In this document: positions 1,512-8,757 of the stretch, in pieces | Numbering within the stretch: the stretch's first letter is position 1 | Layout: every line of letters begins with the position of its first letter | NCBI GenBank assembly: GCA_903822595.1 | Contig: CAIJPS010000103.1 | Location: 1 to 64,000, forward strand | Reading direction: 5' to 3' | Length of the DNA stretch: 64,000 bases | Source of the DNA: an uncultured Chlorobiaceae bacterium | GTDB lineage: Bacteria; Bacteroidota; Chlorobiia; Chlorobiales; Chlorobiaceae | Notes under the pieces: model-generated | Told to the model about the DNA's origin: nothing | The model's database searches: none | Seen by the model: only the letters and a program-made list of their open reading frames with translations | Translations under genes and position numbers: made by a program

Positions 1512-2402
1512 ATGGAAGAGGTGAAAGAATGGGAGGTTGTTGAACTGCTTAAAACAACAACTGATTACTTTGTGACAAAAAAAGTGGATGAGGCGCGTAT
1601 CAGTGCGGAGTTGCTGCTGGGTCATGTCCTCAGCAAGAGCCGTTTGGAGCTCTATCTGCACCATAACAGGTCGGTTTATAAGGATGAGCTTGACCGTTTC
1701 AGGGCACTCTGCCGTGAGCGGATTGAAGGGCGTCCGGTGCAGTACATTATTGGAGAGCAGTACTTTTATGGGTTGCGGTTTTTTGTTGATGAGCGGGTGC
1801 TTATTCCCCGTCCTGAAACCGAGCTGCTTGTTGAACATGCACTTGAATTACTTGGCATGAGTGGCAGAGGTGGTTCCCGGGATGCGAAGATTCTTGATAT
1901 TGGTACGGGAAGTGGTTGCATTGCCGTGACCATGGCGAAGCTCTGCCCTGAACTGAGGGTGAGCGCAGTTGATTGCTCTTTCGAAGCGCTTGAAGTAGCT
2001 CGTATAAATGCTGCAACGCATGGTGTGGAGTCGCGGGTAACCTTCATTCATGCCGATCTCTTTGATGAGCTTTTTGGCGAAAGGTTGCCAGTGCCCTCTT
2101 ATGACTTGATCGTTTCCAATCCGCCCTATATTCCGGCACTCGAATGGGAGACGCTTGAGCGCGAGGTAAAACAGTATGAACCGAAAATTGCTTTGACGAC
2201 GCTTAAAGGGCTGGAGTGTTACCGTGCGATTGTGACGCAGGTAACCAGGCTACTCGTTCCGGGAGGAAAACTTTGTTTTGAACTCCATGCTGATGGAACC
2301 GCAGCAGTGTCTGAACTCATGACAGTCAATGGTTTTTGCGGGATAACGGTATCAAAGGATTATTCTGGCCATGAGCGAATTATTTCGGGGACTTTTGGCT
2401 GA
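1512..2402 (+). CDS. prmC: Peptide chain release factor N5-glutamine methyltransferase
   Basis: Methylates the glutamine of the GGQ motif in release factors 1 and 2, using S-adenosylmethionine. About 296 residues, typical for PrmC/HemK. The N-terminal third is the helical substrate-binding domain with [16 protein letters not shown]; then [16 protein letters not shown] leads into the SAM-binding motif [16 protein letters not shown] and the catalytic NPPY motif ([13 protein letters not shown]). A GTG at 1509 could also start the protein, but the ATG at 1512 has an AGGG five bases upstream. The next gene is hrcA after about 80 bp. The assignment is firm. Confidence 0.95.
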
Positions 2403-2485
2403 AAGAGGGTGCAGAAAAGATTAGTTTTTTTAAATTCATTTTTTTATTTCTCCCGATAAATTGCAATTACTATGTTTATACGGTG

Positions 2486-3538
2486 ATGGATTTTCGTGAT
2501 CTCAATCTGAGAGAGCGGCAGGTTCTTGGCATCATTATCCAGGCCTACGTTGTGACCGCTGCCCCGGTAGGCTCAAGGTATATAGCCAGAAATTACAATC
2601 TGGGCCTTTCTGATGCCACGATACGCAATGTCATGGCTGAACTTGAGAGTGAAGGTTATATCAGCCAGCCGCATACCTCTGCGGGTAGAATTCCGACGGA
2701 CAAGGGGTATCGCTATTATGTTGATCTCATCATGACCTTTCAGTCTCTTGATGAGCAGGAGAAAAAGCGAATTGAGGAAAATGTCGGTCAAATCAGTATC
2801 GATCGAAAGGGTACCTCCTCTGATGTGCTCCTCTCGGCGGTGAAAGTTCTCGGAACAATTTCAAGGCAGTTGAGCGTTGTGTTGTCACCGACGCTTTCAA
2901 ATGCGATTTTTGAGAAACTCGATATGGTGTTGCTGAGCTCGACGAGGATGATGGTGATTCTTTCCATCCAGTCGTTGTTTGTCAAAACCATTGTCATGGA
3001 GCTTGATCTTGAGGTTTCCCGCCAGACGGTTGACGGGGTGGTCGATATGCTCAATCAGCGGTTGTCGGGGCTGACACTTGCCGAAATTCGCCGATCAATT
3101 ACCCGGCGTCTTTCCGGCTGCAGTTGCGACAGTGCCCTGAAAAATCTTATTGTACGCTCTGCAGGTACTCTTTTTGACGAGTCGCCTATTTTTGAGCGTC
3201 TCTATATCTCCGGTACCGAATATATTGTTGATCAGCCTGAGTTCAAGCAGCCGGAAAAGGTTCGCGAGCTTATCACCATGATCGAGGACAAGTTCAGTAT
3301 GGCAAAGCTTGTTGAAAACAGTGGTCCCTCGCGCATGGATATTACCATCAGTATTGGCAAGGAGAACTGCGAACGGCAGGCAGAAGAGCTGACCATTGTC
3401 TCTGCGCCTTACTATGTTGGAAATATGGTTGGAAAACTCGGAATTCTCGGGCCGAAAAGAATGGATTATGAACACGCAGTCCGTGTTCTCAATTATATGG
3501 CCGACAGTCTTTCTGCAACGCTGTCGAGTGTTAACTAA
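2486..3538 (+). CDS. hrcA: Heat-inducible transcription repressor HrcA
   Basis: Represses heat-shock operons by binding the CIRCE inverted repeat. About 350 residues. It opens with a winged-helix DNA-binding domain ([58 protein letters not shown]), followed by the GAF-like HrcA core ending in [19 protein letters not shown], both diagnostic. Two starts are possible, GTG 2483 and ATG 2486; the ATG gives the usual [12 protein letters not shown] beginning. It heads an apparent operon hrcA-grpE-dnaJ (15 bp to grpE). No CIRCE-like TTAGCACTC repeat is visible in the 80 bp upstream, so autoregulation is not supported here. Confidence 0.96.
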
Positions 3539-3553
3539 AAAAAGTAACGAACA

Positions 3554-4177
3554 ATGACAAAGAAAGCAATGGATGAACAAGAGAGTCATAAAGAGTATCT
3601 TGGGGATGTGCCCGAAATTGGTGGTGTTCAGGACAATGCCATCTTCGAGGCAGAGTGGTCGCTGGGGCAGTCATCACAGGAGAGTGATGCTACTGTAGCC
3701 AGAATAGCTGAGCTTGAAAGTGAGCTGGAGAGGCAGAAAGAGCAGGTTGGCAAGTTTCGCGACGAGTTGTTGCGCAAGGCGGCAGATTTTGAGAATTTTC
3801 GCAAACAGAAGGAGCGCGAGGCAATGATGGCCTCTTCGAGGGCTCTCGAGAATATCATCAGGGAACTGCTTCCGGTTGTCGATGATGTCAAACGTCTTCT
3901 TGCCCATGCTCCACAGAGTCCTGAAATATCAAGTGAAGCGCGTCCTTATCTTGAGGGTGTTGAGATGGTGAAGAAAAATCTTGAAAAGTGGCTTGGTGAA
4001 AAAGGGGTTACCGCAATAGAATCAATAGGGACGAAGCTTGATGTGAACTTCCATGAAGCCATCTCCCAGATTGATCACCCCGATGCAGAGCCCGACATGA
4101 TTATCGAGGAGTACCAGACAGGCTACCTGTTGGGAGAGAAGGTGATCAGGCATGCAAAGGTTATTGTTGCCAGATAG
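3554..4177 (+). CDS. grpE: Nucleotide exchange factor GrpE
   Basis: Releases ADP from DnaK during the chaperone cycle. 207 residues: an acidic, low-complexity N-terminus, a long coiled coil ([20 protein letters not shown], then [18 protein letters not shown]) and the C-terminal beta domain with [24 protein letters not shown] and [17 protein letters not shown], the classical GrpE signature. It sits 15 bp after hrcA and 55 bp before dnaJ. dnaK is not in this window, so this is an hrcA-grpE-dnaJ run without dnaK. The start ATG is the first of the frame; a second Met six codons in (MDEQE) is an alternative. Confidence 0.96.
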
Positions 4178-4232
4178 AGGGGGGTACTTTTTTTATAATG
4201 AACGTCATACAAGTTAATTTGCAGGTCTTACT

Positions 4233-5414
4233 ATGAAGAGAGAATATTACGAAGTGCTTGGTGTGGGCCGGACGGCAACCAAGGACGAGATAAAAAAGGC
4301 ATACAGAAAGCTGGCCTTGCAGTTTCATCCCGACAAGAATCCTGACAACAAGGATGCTGAGGATCACTTCAAGGAGGTTAACGAAGCCTATGAAGTGCTG
4401 AGTAACGACGACAAACGACGCCGTTACGACCAGTTCGGTCATGCCGGTGTTGGCTCTTCTGCCGCATCGGGTGGCGGGCAGCCGGGCGGTGGAGCCGATT
4501 TAAACGATATTTTCAGCGCTTTCAACGACATGTTCAGCGGCAGGAACAGGGGAGGTGGTTCTCCCTTCGGTTTTGAAGACGCATTTGGTGGCGGTGGCAG
4601 AAGACGCGCTTCAGCGGGTATTGCTGGAACGGATCTGAAAATCCGTCTCAAGTTGACCCTTGAGGAGATTGCCAAGGGTGTTGAAAAAACATTGAAGATA
4701 AAAAAACAGGTTACCTGCAAGGAGTGTAACGGCAGTGGATCCAAATCGGGCGCAACAGAGAACTGTCAGACCTGCCACGGCAGTGGAGAGGTTCGACAGG
4801 TTTCAAAAACGATGTTTGGTCAGTTTGTCAATGTTGCCGCCTGTCCGACATGCGGAGGTGAAGGCCGGATTATCAAGGATCGTTGTACCGCATGTTATGG
4901 TGAAGGGATAAAGCTTGGTGATGTCACCGTAAAGGTTGCGGTTCCATCTGGAGTCGAGGACGGGAATTACCTCACCCTGCGCGGCCAGGGCAACTCCGGG
5001 CCGAGAGGAGGTGCCGCCGGTGACTTGATTGTTGTGATTGAAGAGATCCCGCACGAGCTCTTTTCACGCAATGGAGACGATGTGATCTATAACCTTGCCG
5101 TCAGTTTTCCCGACCTTGTGCTCGGTACAAAGGTTGATGTTCCGACGCTTGACGGAGCGGTCAAGCTGACCATTCCTCCCTCGACGCAGCCGGAGACCAT
5201 GCTTCGTATAGCGGGTCACGGGATCGGTCATCTGAGAGGATCGTCAAGGGGCGACCAGTATGTAAAAGTCAACGTTTTTGTTCCAAAAGATCTTTCACAT
5301 CAGGACAAGGAGCTTCTGAAAGAGATGAAAAAATCCTCAGGGATTTCACCCTCGGCCCACAACGACAAGAATGCCAAAGGCTTTTTTGAAAAAGCCCGAG
5401 ATATCTTCAGTTAA
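4233..5414 (+). CDS. dnaJ: Chaperone protein DnaJ
   Basis: Hsp40 co-chaperone that delivers substrates to DnaK and stimulates its ATPase. 393 residues with the full type I layout: J domain (residues 1-70, with FHPDKN carrying the HPD motif), a Gly/Phe-rich linker (about 75-130), four CxxCxGxG zinc-finger repeats ([32 protein letters not shown]; about 165-230) and the C-terminal substrate-binding beta domain. The third and fourth repeats are slightly degenerate but all eight cysteines are present. It is the last gene of the heat-shock run and is followed 18 bp later by a strong bidirectional terminator. Confidence 0.97.
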
Positions 5415-5432
5415 GAGATACTGCCACTGACG

Positions 5433-5483
5433 CACTACAACAAAAAAAGGCCGGATTGTTACCGGCCTTTTTTTGTTGTAGTG
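5433..5483. terminator. Bidirectional terminator between dnaJ and malic enzyme
   Basis: A perfect 22-bp inverted repeat (5433-5454 and 5462-5483) with a 7-base loop. Each arm contains GGCCGG or CCGGCC next to a run of seven A or T, so either strand gives a GC stem followed by a U tract. It lies between the convergent dnaJ (+) and malic enzyme (-) genes and can terminate both. Confidence 0.9.
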
Positions 5484-5498
5484 GAATTGACACTTTTG

Positions 5499-6701
5499 TC
5501 AGTTCAGCAGTGCATGTACCAGCTCTTCCAGCTCAGGCTCATTTTCAGCGTAACTTCTTGCTGCCTCGGTATTTGAGATAACGTCAACGATATTGCGCAC
5601 AACATCCTTGTTGAAGGCAGTCGGCATCAAGTGATCGCGAGTTGGCACAATGGAGTGGGCGATTGAGGTCGCAACAGCCATTTTGATTTCCGGGGTCACT
5701 TTTTTGATGCCACTTGTAAAGAGGCCTCTGAAAAGACCAGGGAAAACAAGGGCATTATTCACCTGGTTTGGCAGATCTGAACGACCCGTTCCAACAACGC
5801 TCGCACCAGCCTTATAGGCAAGGTCAGGCATGATTTCCGGTTCCGGATTGGCCATGGCAAAGATAAACGGTGCGCAGTTCATTCCCTCAACCATGGCAGG
5901 AGTGACGATGTTGCCGACAGAGACGCCTACAAAGACATCAGTACCGACCATGCTGCTCTGCAGATCGCCACTATGTTTCGCCTTGTTGCTGATTGCAGCG
6001 ATTCCCTGCTTGATTGAATTCATGCCCGGACGGCCCTCGTAGATTGCACCCTGTGTATCAACCAGCACAACATCCTTCACCTTTGCATGAATGAGGAGCC
6101 TTGCGATGGCAATACCGGCAGCACCGGCACCATTGATGATAACAGAGAGATCTTCGATCTCTCGTCCCGTTACACGGCATGCATTGATGATGGCAGCGAT
6201 GGTAACAATGGCGGTACCGTCCTGGTCGTCATGAAAAACCGGAATTGAAAGCTCTTCTTCGAGACGCGTAAAAATTTCAAAACATCTTGGTGCTGAAATA
6301 TCTTCAAGATTGATGCCGGCAAAACTCGGCTCAATCATCTTGCAGAATTTTATGATCTCTTCTACATCGGTTGAGTTGATGCAGAGCGGAATGGCATCGA
6401 TATCAGCAAATTCCTTGAAAATAATAGCTTTTCCCTCCATGACCGGCATGGCAGCCTCAGGGCCAAGGTCACCGAGACCGAGTATGGCTGTGCCATCAGT
6501 TACAATCGCAACCTGATTGGCCCGGTTGGTCAGGGTATAGGATTTCTGTTTGTCGAGCCCGATCTCTGTGCAAACGGCTGCTACCCCCGGGGTATATGCC
6601 AAGGATAGATCGTCTTTGGTTTTAATGCTGACCTTCGAGCGAATTTCGATCTTGCCGCGTGAACGGAGATGTAACTCTATTGATTTTTGTGAATAGTCCA
6701 T
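5499..6701 (-). CDS. Malic enzyme (malate dehydrogenase, oxaloacetate-decarboxylating)
   Basis: Interconverts malate and pyruvate plus CO2 with NAD(P). 400 residues, the length of the short prokaryotic malic enzymes without the C-terminal phosphotransacetylase-like domain. Visible features: the N-terminal SLAYTPGVAAVC stretch, VTDGTAILGLGDLGPEAAMPVMEGKA-type core (positions about 68-90), metal-binding VFHDDQDGTAIVT, the Rossmann motif INGAGAAGIAI and the late FAMANPEPEI and GTGRSDLPNQVNN motifs. The nucleotide preference cannot be read with confidence. It is convergent with dnaJ, with no upstream partner on its strand for 400 bp. In a reductive-TCA organism it would balance the C4 and pyruvate pools; that is inference. 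Confidence 0.93.
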   Translation of the reverse strand: MDYSQKSIELHLRSRGKIEIRSKVSIKTKDDLSLAYTPGVAAVCTEIGLDKQKSYTLTNRANQVAIVTDGTAILGLGDLGPEAAMPVMEGKAIIFKEFADIDAIPLCINSTDVEEIIKFCKMIEPSFAGINLEDISAPRCFEIFTRLEEELSIPVFHDDQDGTAIVTIAAIINACRVTGREIEDLSVIINGAGAAGIAIARLLIHAKVKDVVLVDTQGAIYEGRPGMNSIKQGIAAISNKAKHSGDLQSSMVGTDVFVGVSVGNIVTPAMVEGMNCAPFIFAMANPEPEIMPDLAYKAGASVVGTGRSDLPNQVNNALVFPGLFRGLFTSGIKKVTPEIKMAVATSIAHSIVPTRDHLMPTAFNKDVVRNIVDVISNTEAARSYAENEPELEELVHALLN

Positions 6702-7013
6702 GTTCCTAACAATGACTCCCTGGTCATGATTTGTAGAGTGATATAAAATGAGCTTGCCTTACTAGGTGGTGTGCCGGTGAACGCGGGAAAACGTATTGAA
6801 GTATTCCTGAGAAATGTGAACAGGCGGACAAGGTTATTGTAAAACGATCTAATATAGTCTTTTTTTTACAGTTAAACCGGTGCTATTTATACTTTCAGCG
6901 ATTTTGATTCGCGCTTCTGCTTCACCTGTTGCCCTGAGAACAAGCGAATTGTCCGTCGAGAGAAATGACTGTTGAAGAATGAATGTCTTGCTTTATTGGC
7001 CGCAATCGCTTTC

Positions 7014-7079
7014 GCCGAACGTTTAAATGCACCGGCCTGCGCGGCTTTTCGGCAGGTACGGTGGAGTGAGTGGTTAGGC
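7014..7079 (-). repeat. attC-like (59-base element) recombination site
   Basis: On the minus strand a 66-bp segment starts with the core GCCTAAC and ends with GTTCGGC, the two pairing in 6 of 7 positions as attC R'' and R' boxes do. Inside, CACCG pairs with CGGTG (L''/L' position) and CCTGC with GCAGG, giving the stepped imperfect hairpin expected of a folded single-stranded attC. The CTCACTCCACCG and TTTAAACGTT stretches resemble Pseudomonas-type attC sites, recalled from the literature. It lies 41 bp downstream of the gene at 7120-7818, in the same orientation, which is how an integron cassette is built. Translating it gives the PNHSLHRT peptide often miscalled as protein. Confidence 0.6.
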
Positions 7080-7119
7080 TGGGCTGACACAGTTGACGGA
7101 CTGAGTGTTTGAAGAAGTG

Positions 7120-7818
7120 TCATTTTTTGCCTGGGGTGTCTGAATCACTAGTTGGCTGCCCTTGTTTCGCACCGGATGTCGCCTTGCCAAGAACATATCC
7201 CGCAATAGCCGCTATTATTGGAGAGATGTCTTTCCCATCGAGAATCTTCAGGATGCCCAAAATTAAAACAGTGAATATGATGACGATGACGGTGCTGTAT
7301 TCCAGAAGAAAAGACCATCCTCCACCCAATAGAGAGATATCTATGGAGCTAGGTACCTTCTTTTCTGCGCGCTTTGCTGCTTCGGTTTCAACTTGTTGCC
7401 GCAATGTCTCGTATCTAACTCTTTCCTCTGATTCCCATTTCTGCTCCGCTGCACGCTGTATCTTCTGCTCTTCCTTCCTTTTGAGCCGCTCCTCTTTCTC
7501 CTCGGGCGTTTCGTTGCTCGGGATCCAATCCGACTCAAGACTCCCTGCATACTTTTCACTCTCCCATAGCCGTTGAGTAGAGCCATAGCCATCTGGTGGA
7601 GGATTCCTGGGATCTATCGGACCTTCCACCGCCCTATCGTGCAATTCACGAAGTAAAACCTTCAATTCTTGTTGCTTCGCGCCCTCTATCAGGGAGTCGC
7701 GAAGATAGGCTGACGTTTGGAGCCGGCGACCGAAGAAAAAAACCATCCAGATGCACGCAAGGCATGTTGCAAGGACGATGACGACTAAAACGCTAGAATC
7801 GACAAATAATGTGTTCAT
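7120..7818 (-). CDS. Orphan membrane protein with central coiled coil (cassette-like gene)
   Basis: 232 residues, not recognised. Residues 8-30 form a membrane segment (VLVVIVLATCLACIWMVFFF); a charged region follows, with a Pro-rich stretch and a strongly helical, Glu/Lys/Arg-rich part (about 105-155: PEEKEERLKRKEEQ and following) likely to be a coiled coil. A second membrane segment (about 170-192, VIVIIFTVLILGILKIL) and a third short hydrophobic Gly/Ala stretch (ISPIIAAIAGYVLG) come next, then a polar tail. It is followed after 41 bp by the attC-like site, and upstream is a GC-rich island rather than an operon partner. This suggests an integron gene cassette. A lone gene with no known domain; function not proposed. 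Confidence 0.65.
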   Translation of the reverse strand: MNTLFVDSSVLVVIVLATCLACIWMVFFFGRRLQTSAYLRDSLIEGAKQQELKVLLRELHDRAVEGPIDPRNPPPDGYGSTQRLWESEKYAGSLESDWIPSNETPEEKEERLKRKEEQKIQRAAEQKWESEERVRYETLRQQVETEAAKRAEKKVPSSIDISLLGGGWSFLLEYSTVIVIIFTVLILGILKILDGKDISPIIAAIAGYVLGKATSGAKQGQPTSDSDTPGKK

Positions 7819-7920
7819 CGCAGTTCTCCGTTTTTACACAATAGAATCAGGTGTTAATCAAGATTACGTATTAAAACAAAAAATAATACAGTTTTCTGAC
7901 AATATCTCAGAAAATGCTGA

Positions 7921-8220
7921 GTTCAGCCGCAGCTCAACCAGCCTTACGCCCGCATCCTGCCACGCTTCGCAACAGCGCTTTGCCGCCTCTCGCAGCCGCA
8001 TACCCCGCAGCTTGCGCTCTTGCTCCGCCACAAGCAAAGGCGCTCACATGAGCCGCTGCGCCCCCGTTGCGCCTTGCTGCTGCCTGCTCAGTGCCAGCGT
8101 AACAGTACATCAGCACATGTCTTTTTCTGCGCGCTTCGCTTGCTCGCGTACCCGCGCTCAGTGGCTGGACATGGCAGCAGATCGCCGCCACCGGGCAAGC
8201 AGTGCACCGGCCGGTAACAA
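7921..8220. other. GC-rich non-coding island
   Basis: About 300 bp that is visibly richer in G and C than its surroundings and contains many GCNGC-type words and near-palindromes (for example GCTCACATGAGC). Short open frames cross it in both directions, but their products are Ala/Arg/Gly-rich, have no known domain and lack a convincing start. It lies between the flavodoxin terminator and the cassette-like gene. It may be a dispersed repeat, a structured RNA or foreign DNA; I cannot decide. Confidence 0.4.
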
Positions 8221-8233
8221 TATATGTGAGGCA

Positions 8234-8273
8234 ACGAAAAAAGGTAAGCGGCCCGAAGCAGCCGGGTCCGCTT
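8234..8273 (-). terminator. Terminator of the flavodoxin gene
   Basis: On the minus strand a stem AAGCGGaCCCG / CGGGCCGCTT (8246-8273, one bulge) is followed by a U-rich tract (ACCTTTTTTCG). It lies 38 bp after the flavodoxin stop codon. Confidence 0.65.
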
Positions 8274-8310
8274 GAATGAGGGGTTCAGTGATGGTTATCG
8301 CACCGAAACG

Positions 8311-8757
8311 TTACAATGACCGGTACGCTTTGTTCAGCCCGTCAACATAGTTGGCGATGACGCTTTGGTCAGAGAGTTGATCGGGGGCAAAAATCTTTTC
8401 GGCAATAATGGTGCTGCCGATGAGGTTGAGTTTCAGTTGTGGCAGGTAGAGCAAGTTTGCCATTAGTTCAGGGCTGCCGCAGGTGAGAAACAGTGCGATT
8501 TTTTTGCCCTGAAGGCAGCTTTTAAGGTTGCTTTGCAGCAGTGCTCCAAGAAGTTCTGATGCGACAAGCAGATAGTAAATTGGGGCACCCAGGATTACAA
8601 CATCAAACTCCTTGACGAAGCTGTAATCTCCTGTTGCTTTACATTTTGCCTTTTCAACGTAGGCGCCTGTTTCGGCAAGTTTCAGGCCAATTGAATCAAT
8701 GAGCTTTTCGGTCGATCCACCTGAAGTTTTGCTGTCGAACAGGATGATAGCTTTCAT
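8311..8757 (-). CDS. Flavodoxin family protein
   Basis: Small FMN-dependent electron carrier or NAD(P)H-type reductase of the flavodoxin fold, 148 residues. The start at 8757 gives MKAIILFDSKTSGGSTEKL, where SKTSGGSTEKL is a variant of the T/SxTGxT phosphate-binding loop. The alternating strands VVILGAPIYYLLVASE and KKIALFLTCGSPE match flavin-contact loops. The open frame runs back to 8967, but that would cross the gap terminator and the end of gap, so a downstream start is required; ATG 8781 is the alternative. No strong Shine-Dalgarno site precedes either. Its redox partner is not evident from neighbours. Confidence 0.8.
   Translation of the reverse strand: MKAIILFDSKTSGGSTEKLIDSIGLKLAETGAYVEKAKCKATGDYSFVKEFDVVILGAPIYYLLVASELLGALLQSNLKSCLQGKKIALFLTCGSPELMANLLYLPQLKLNLIGSTIIAEKIFAPDQLSDQSVIANYVDGLNKAYRSL

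Follow-up and report, generated by a model that had tools for sequence, protein, structure and literature searches.

Single attC sites without an integrase have been described as SALINs (PMC12690207). By default, IntegronFinder 2.0 reports clusters of at least two attC sites, and single sites can also be true ones (PMC9024848). Cassette integration at attG sites has likewise been described (PMC12901181, referring to the original paper). In Chlorobi, intI genes or complete integrons occur (PMC9024848, PMC2426708), including an intI gene in C. phaeobacteroides (PMC3607928), and these reports bear out the statement of an initial annotation of the present DNA that integrons are found outside the Gammaproteobacteria, including in some Chlorobi.

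The DNA analysed here is a stretch of 64,000 nucleotides (the window), which corresponds to positions 1-64000 of contig C103 in a genome of 3.04 Mb and 109 contigs (G000). The host is presumably Chlorobium or a close relative, in line with the Chlorobi-type chromosome named in the initial annotation. Between a malic-enzyme-type gene and a flavodoxin-domain gene, it holds an orphan ORF followed by an attC site. On the evidence presented below, this pair is likely to be a single integron gene cassette lying outside an integron, that is, a SALIN, and was probably placed there by an integrase at an attG-like target.

Anatomy and folding of the attC site

The attC site (7014-7079, minus strand) is a 66-bp imperfect hairpin with GCCTAAC and GTTCGGC at its ends. 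Read along the minus strand, it consists of the R″ box GCCTAAC (7079-7073), a 5-nt spacer (7072-7068), the L″ arm ACTC-C-ACCGT (7067-7058, then A at 7057), a variable terminal stem (7056-7036), the L′ arm CCGGT-GCAT (7035-7027), the spacer TTAAAC (7026-7021) and the R′ box GTTCGGC (7020-7014). These are the R″/R′ boxes, L boxes and stem that the initial annotation had described within 66 bp, and all of them are indeed present. An attC site is characterized by complementary R″ (RYYYAAC) and R′ (GTTRRRY) boxes that lie ~50-150 bp apart and by L″/L′ arms with an extrahelical base. Both boxes are found at 7014-7079, where the single departure in R′, a C in place of R, also occurs in two of the sites used for model training (L096 and L107). 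The L″/L′ arms keep the canonical register of the training sites, with some pairs broken. In a simple structural scan of the window that returned 112 R″/R′ pairs, the site ranked first by symmetric-stem fraction (0.64, compared with 0.45 for the runner-up).

With respect to folding, the initial annotation had suggested that the site be folded as single-stranded DNA. The predicted energy is −13.2 kcal/mol for the plus strand, which serves as the bottom strand for this gene, and −10.7 kcal/mol for the minus strand, and the bottom strand is likewise the more stable one in 36 of 50 other attC sites. Shuffled sequences matched the fold in 7 of 200 cases (plus) and 12 of 200 cases (minus), and folding on its own is therefore weak evidence; the z-score of the single-strand fold is −1.9. 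Approximately 4 of the 19 consensus pairs are broken, which indicates that the site is probably somewhat decayed.

Other identities for the sequence were also considered. The possibility that it is an ordinary repeat, which the initial annotation had named as an outcome that would speak against a cassette, was rejected, as a BLAST search of the site and its flanks against its own genome returned only the site itself at a significant level. An Rfam search of 6500-8500 gave no match, and an insertion associated with a tRNA was rejected because the window has no tRNA gene.

Covariance model support

Two covariance models were used. Model R1 was built from 14 attC-like sites, most of which lie close to an intI gene or fragment of the genus, and model R2 from 50 sites, comprising genus sites found with R1 together with outside sites and leaving out 7014-7079. 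As a control, R1 recovered the class 1 aadA1 attC at 57.5 bits, even though this site was outside its training set, and it also recovered sites on a Kovacikia plasmid; these are the outside sites that entered R2. The score of 7014-7079 was 24.0 bits with R1 (E of 0.021 in the window and ~1 genome-wide) and 35.9 bits with R2 on the minus strand (E of 1.5e-6 in the window and 7.3e-5 genome-wide), all E-values being rough since they derive from a shortened calibration. The test with an attC covariance model that the initial annotation had recommended is therefore significant with our own model R2. Part of the gain over R1 arises because three R2 training sites (L099, L103 and L108) carry the same terminal stem as 7014-7079. 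One of these, an attC site in the relative G043 (L103), has a 21-nt exact run, CGAAAAGCCGCGCAGGCCGGT, in common with it. Apart from a weak hairpin at 8230-8289 (25.5 bits), the next R2 match in the window reached 11.6 bits. Covariation is strong across the 19 base pairs of the R2 structure, with 141 two-sided changed cells against 51 expected from shuffles in an alignment that was itself structure-fitted.

The opposite orientation, in which the site would face away from the ORF, had first been suggested by AAATGCACCGG, which is common to a site in L022, and was rejected because R2 scores the plus strand at just 10.9 bits. Elsewhere in the genus, one attC-like sequence (positions 945-1002 of L095, G012:C135) is an almost perfect palindrome that the model matches on both strands.

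These results bear directly on whether 7014-7079 might be a chance hairpin or a transcription terminator that resembles attC, which we regard as highly improbable. The R1 genome-wide E-value and the modest z-score of the single-strand fold are what such an origin would lead one to expect. It is opposed by the R2 genome-wide E-value, the strand specificity, the full R/spacer/L register and the 21-nt identity with another attC, as well as by the absence of a T run past the stem and by the fact that R2 finds nothing at E up to 0.01 in 22 of 65 genus genomes. Taken together, model score, orientation, register and sequence in common with genus attC sites identify 7014-7079 as a genuine attC.

The orphan ORF

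The probable cassette gene is an ORF of 232 aa (7120-7818, minus strand), with the attC site starting 40 bp downstream in the same orientation. Among sites elsewhere whose co-oriented ORF is no more than 400 bp away, most have a spacing of −6 to 90 bp. The initial annotation had reported an orphan gene with a co-oriented site 41 bp away; the orientation and the orphan status are correct, and the distance is revised to the 40 bp measured here.

In terms of relatives, the ORF has no family above cut-off in Pfam or NCBIfam and no match below E 0.01 in PHROGs and PADLOC, and no relatives were found on plasmids. Searches of 64 other genus genomes gave no match below E 0.001, G034 giving a partial, marginal one (E 0.004), and searches of 295 other genomes of the phylum sample gave none below 1e-4. 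The only strong relative found is an ORF of Ktedonobacter sp. SOSP1-85 with 50% identity to residues 3-198, and a short match was seen in Sorangium; both came from scanning 84,980 species genomes with a method sensitive to close relatives only. A model search found no attC at the Ktedonobacter copy. Beside this copy lies a gene that by eye resembles an IscB-type HNH nuclease (L070, 3934-5340). As judged by eye, the N- and C-terminal segments of the ORF product are hydrophobic and the middle is charged, which suggests a membrane protein. The ORF is foreign to this chromosome, and a single ORF with a close, co-oriented attC is one of the marks of a gene cassette.

Integrase and attC array elsewhere in the genome

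The initial annotation had noted that the window holds no intI gene and had proposed a genome-wide search for intI and further attC sites. The former observation is accurate and extends to the whole of contig C103, where neither intI nor a fragment is among the matches listed, so the adjacent intI of a complete integron is missing, and where R2 gives only one other match, a weak one. The wider search was positive, however: the same genome carries an intact integrase on C73, with integrase fragments and an attC array on C65, and the unit is thus solitary only locally. Specifically, the C73 IntI is full length, keeps the tyrosine recombinase core residues and the integron-specific region, and matches the solved structure of Vibrio cholerae IntI4 at an E-value of 2.4e-89, while the C65 array comprises five R2 sites at E below 0.01. 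With one attC at 7014-7079 and its nearest integrase sequences on other contigs, the unit has the make-up of a SALIN.

The C65 array was also of interest for its contents (L034, G000:C65:40000-51769). Its segments at 2199-3343 and 3500-6121 contain two small ORFs that weakly match PADLOC TIR-effector models, and a large ORF that by eye resembles a DUF4062-type ATPase and has no PADLOC match. From sequence resemblance, these ORFs are possible defence cassettes.

A probable insertion between conserved genes

The flanks of the unit are conserved. On the left, the malic-enzyme-type gene (5499-6701, minus strand; Pfam PF00390/PF03949) is syntenic in relatives, and on the right, the flavodoxin-domain gene (8311-8757, minus strand; Pfam PF12724) has best copies in relatives that are 94-97% identical. 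The two genes stay neighbours in relatives. BLAST comparison with the syntenic loci of the nearest relatives shows left homology stopping at 6838-6890 and right homology resuming at 8221-8333, which delimits a stretch without counterpart at approximately 6866-8235. The gap between aligned flanks is ~125 bp in G053, ~150-160 bp in G020 and G038, and ~1.4 kb here, an excess of ~1.3 kb over the shortest syntenic intergenic regions. Because the region is much shorter in some relatives, insertion is favoured over stranding. The initial annotation had offered both, namely capture by a chromosomal integron with later stranding, or insertion at a secondary site, without choosing between them; its cassette reading stands, and the shorter gap now tips the balance toward insertion.

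Several relatives (G043, G002, G059, G019, G033 and others) carry different inserts of ~370-900 bp or more in the same gap. The inserts seen in L041-L048 include a methyltransferase-like ORF and a small ORF common to G002, G059 and G019, among others. At the relatives' loci examined, no R2 attC match exceeded 15.1 bits. The intergenic region is hypervariable and too divergent for base-level joins, and for this reason the cassette ends cannot be fixed to the base. A candidate for the 5′ cassette boundary, which should fall at the G/TT of a preceding recombination site, is GTTGAGC (7940-7934). It is the only perfect GTTRRRY noticed on the way from the ORF to the right flank, and such a motif is often expected by chance.

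The insert also contains sequences of other kinds. Upstream of the ORF lies a dispersed element (7864-7927, minus strand; ATATTGTCAGAAAAC...TTGTTTTAATACGTAA, also given as ATATTGYCAGAAAAC...TTGTTTTAATRCGTAA) with similar sequence close to the starts of mutually unrelated genes in relatives, where it precedes an NfeD-like/stomatin pair, a PfpI-like gene and a zinc-ribbon membrane protein gene (L130, L134-L137 and L139; genes named by eye). A pattern search for its core in the own genome gave two matches, one of them within the window. This element may serve as the ORF's promoter region or be a dispersed repeat. Farther to the right is a GC-rich dispersed intergenic repeat (8014-8150, minus strand; 76-78% matches in G043 and G010), and near the left edge is a 51-bp piece from a stomatin/SPFH-like gene (6894-6944, minus strand), which matches coding sequence of four relatives at 92-94% identity. 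No further DNA-level copy of this fragment was found in the own genome. Counterparts of the 7864-7927 element and the stomatin piece both occur in G002:C58, where they at first suggested the termini of a single mobile element; this was rejected, as one of them precedes the NfeD-like/stomatin genes and the other lies within coding sequence. With a dispersed repeat and a stomatin fragment the insert is composite, and it follows that a single cassette does not account for the whole of it.

This composite structure raises the question of whether the ORF and attC were brought in jointly, as part of a larger piece of transferred DNA or through ordinary recombination at this variable intergenic spot, with no local involvement of an integrase. 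Dispersed repeats and the stomatin fragment do flank the cassette, and the differing inserts in relatives, with their low R2 scores, speak in favour of this route. A correctly oriented attC right behind a foreign gene is nevertheless a cassette signature, and nearly half of the genus sites are equally isolated, so we consider this route improbable.

A more serious competitor, and the main alternative to placement by an integrase, is that the unit is the remnant of a former array, either in place or brought by rearrangement, whose other cassettes and intI were lost so that one cassette was left stranded. The weak attC-like hairpin at 8230-8289 (minus strand), a second candidate site 1.15 kb away on the same strand, would fit such a remnant, as would the gene debris within the insert and the decaying intI fragments and attC arrays elsewhere in the genome and genus. 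This hairpin, however, is GC-rich, sits directly behind the flavodoxin gene and is kept alongside it in G043 and G002, where R2 gives 14-15 bits. In view of this association, of the T run at its end and of its broken R′, we downgraded it as a second flanking attC; it is more likely the flavodoxin gene's terminator resembling attC, and less probably a degenerate attC. Together with the lack of an intI fragment among the matches listed for contig C103 and of an array at any relative's locus examined, the allegiance of the hairpin to the conserved flavodoxin side makes the remnant unlikely.

Integrase-mediated insertion of a single cassette thus remains the reading that we prefer. In such an event, the C73 integrase or an earlier one would have folded the bottom strand of the attC and joined it by recombination to a non-classical, attG-like target in the malic-enzyme/flavodoxin intergenic region. 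The attC would then have drifted slightly, leaving the broken pairs and the R′ sequence GTTCGGC, and transcription of the ORF may proceed from the upstream element that recurs before other genus genes.

Solitary attC sites across the genus

Building from this locus, we surveyed the genus as a whole. An IntI above the TIGR02249 cut-off is present in 12 of 61 sampled genomes, whereas R2 sites at E up to 0.01 occur in 43 of 65, at 140 distinct places. As judged from the intI matches listed, 69 of these 140 sites, in 36 genomes, lie >10 kb from any other site, intI or fragment, and at least 26 have an intI or a fragment of one no more than 10 kb away; these tallies are estimates that rest on best-scoring intI matches and draft contigs, with four genomes outside the intI search and with weaker matches that may include terminators. 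Since the contigs are draft, "solitary" here means solitary by assembly. The strongest solitary sites, G053:C101:32075 (66.6 bits) and G009:C67:42481 (61.1 bits), were both in the R2 training set, and R1, whose training set lacked both, scored them at 61.0 and 47.4 bits, respectively. That these two are true attC sites is hard to doubt. Another of the strong solitary sites is G002:C67:32105.

IntI also shows a recurrent truncation, which leaves C-terminal pieces that cover much the same part of TIGR02249 (from position ~214-254 to position 315) in ORFs of 87-111 aa. Such pieces were seen at G050:C2:81149, G003:C10:3470, G007:C42:101999, G039:C96:7795, G043:C14:119673, G057:C40:22158 and G018:C22:6658. 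All have attC sites on the same contig except G018:C22, for which no R2 site is listed.

A broader proposal, which we put forward tentatively and consider possible but doubtful, is that most attC cassettes of the genus are singletons scattered over the chromosome, that off-integron (attG-like) integration is their main mode of storage, and that the 7014-7079 unit is one of ~70. The genus-wide scatter of lone attC sites is in any case a more interesting lead than the single locus. With many attC sites far from integrases and IntI in a minority of genomes, the genus offers a natural test bed for genome-wide cassette integration outside laboratory conditions.

Comparison with known systems

Cassette integration at attG sites was reportedly observed in proteobacteria by Loot et al. 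2024 (Nat Microbiol 9:228-240). The present unit resembles such events in that a cassette sits in intergenic DNA, away from attI and attC arrays, in a genome that has an integrase. It differs in that its host is not known to be among the proteobacteria of that study and in that its integration point is not placed to the base.

The likeness to SALINs lies in one attC behind one ORF with no intI nearby, following the published definition (PMC12690207), and the difference lies in the intact intI and the array on other contigs of this genome. With the Chlorobi chromosomal integrons, the locus has in common that intI or complete integrons occur within the same phylum; those reports, however, treat intI and complete integrons, and a genus-wide scatter of lone sites is not described in them. 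The 7014-7818 locus is therefore a further example of a known phenomenon, neither a new system nor a new mechanism, and it adds to the known cases a well-supported lone cassette from outside the proteobacteria.
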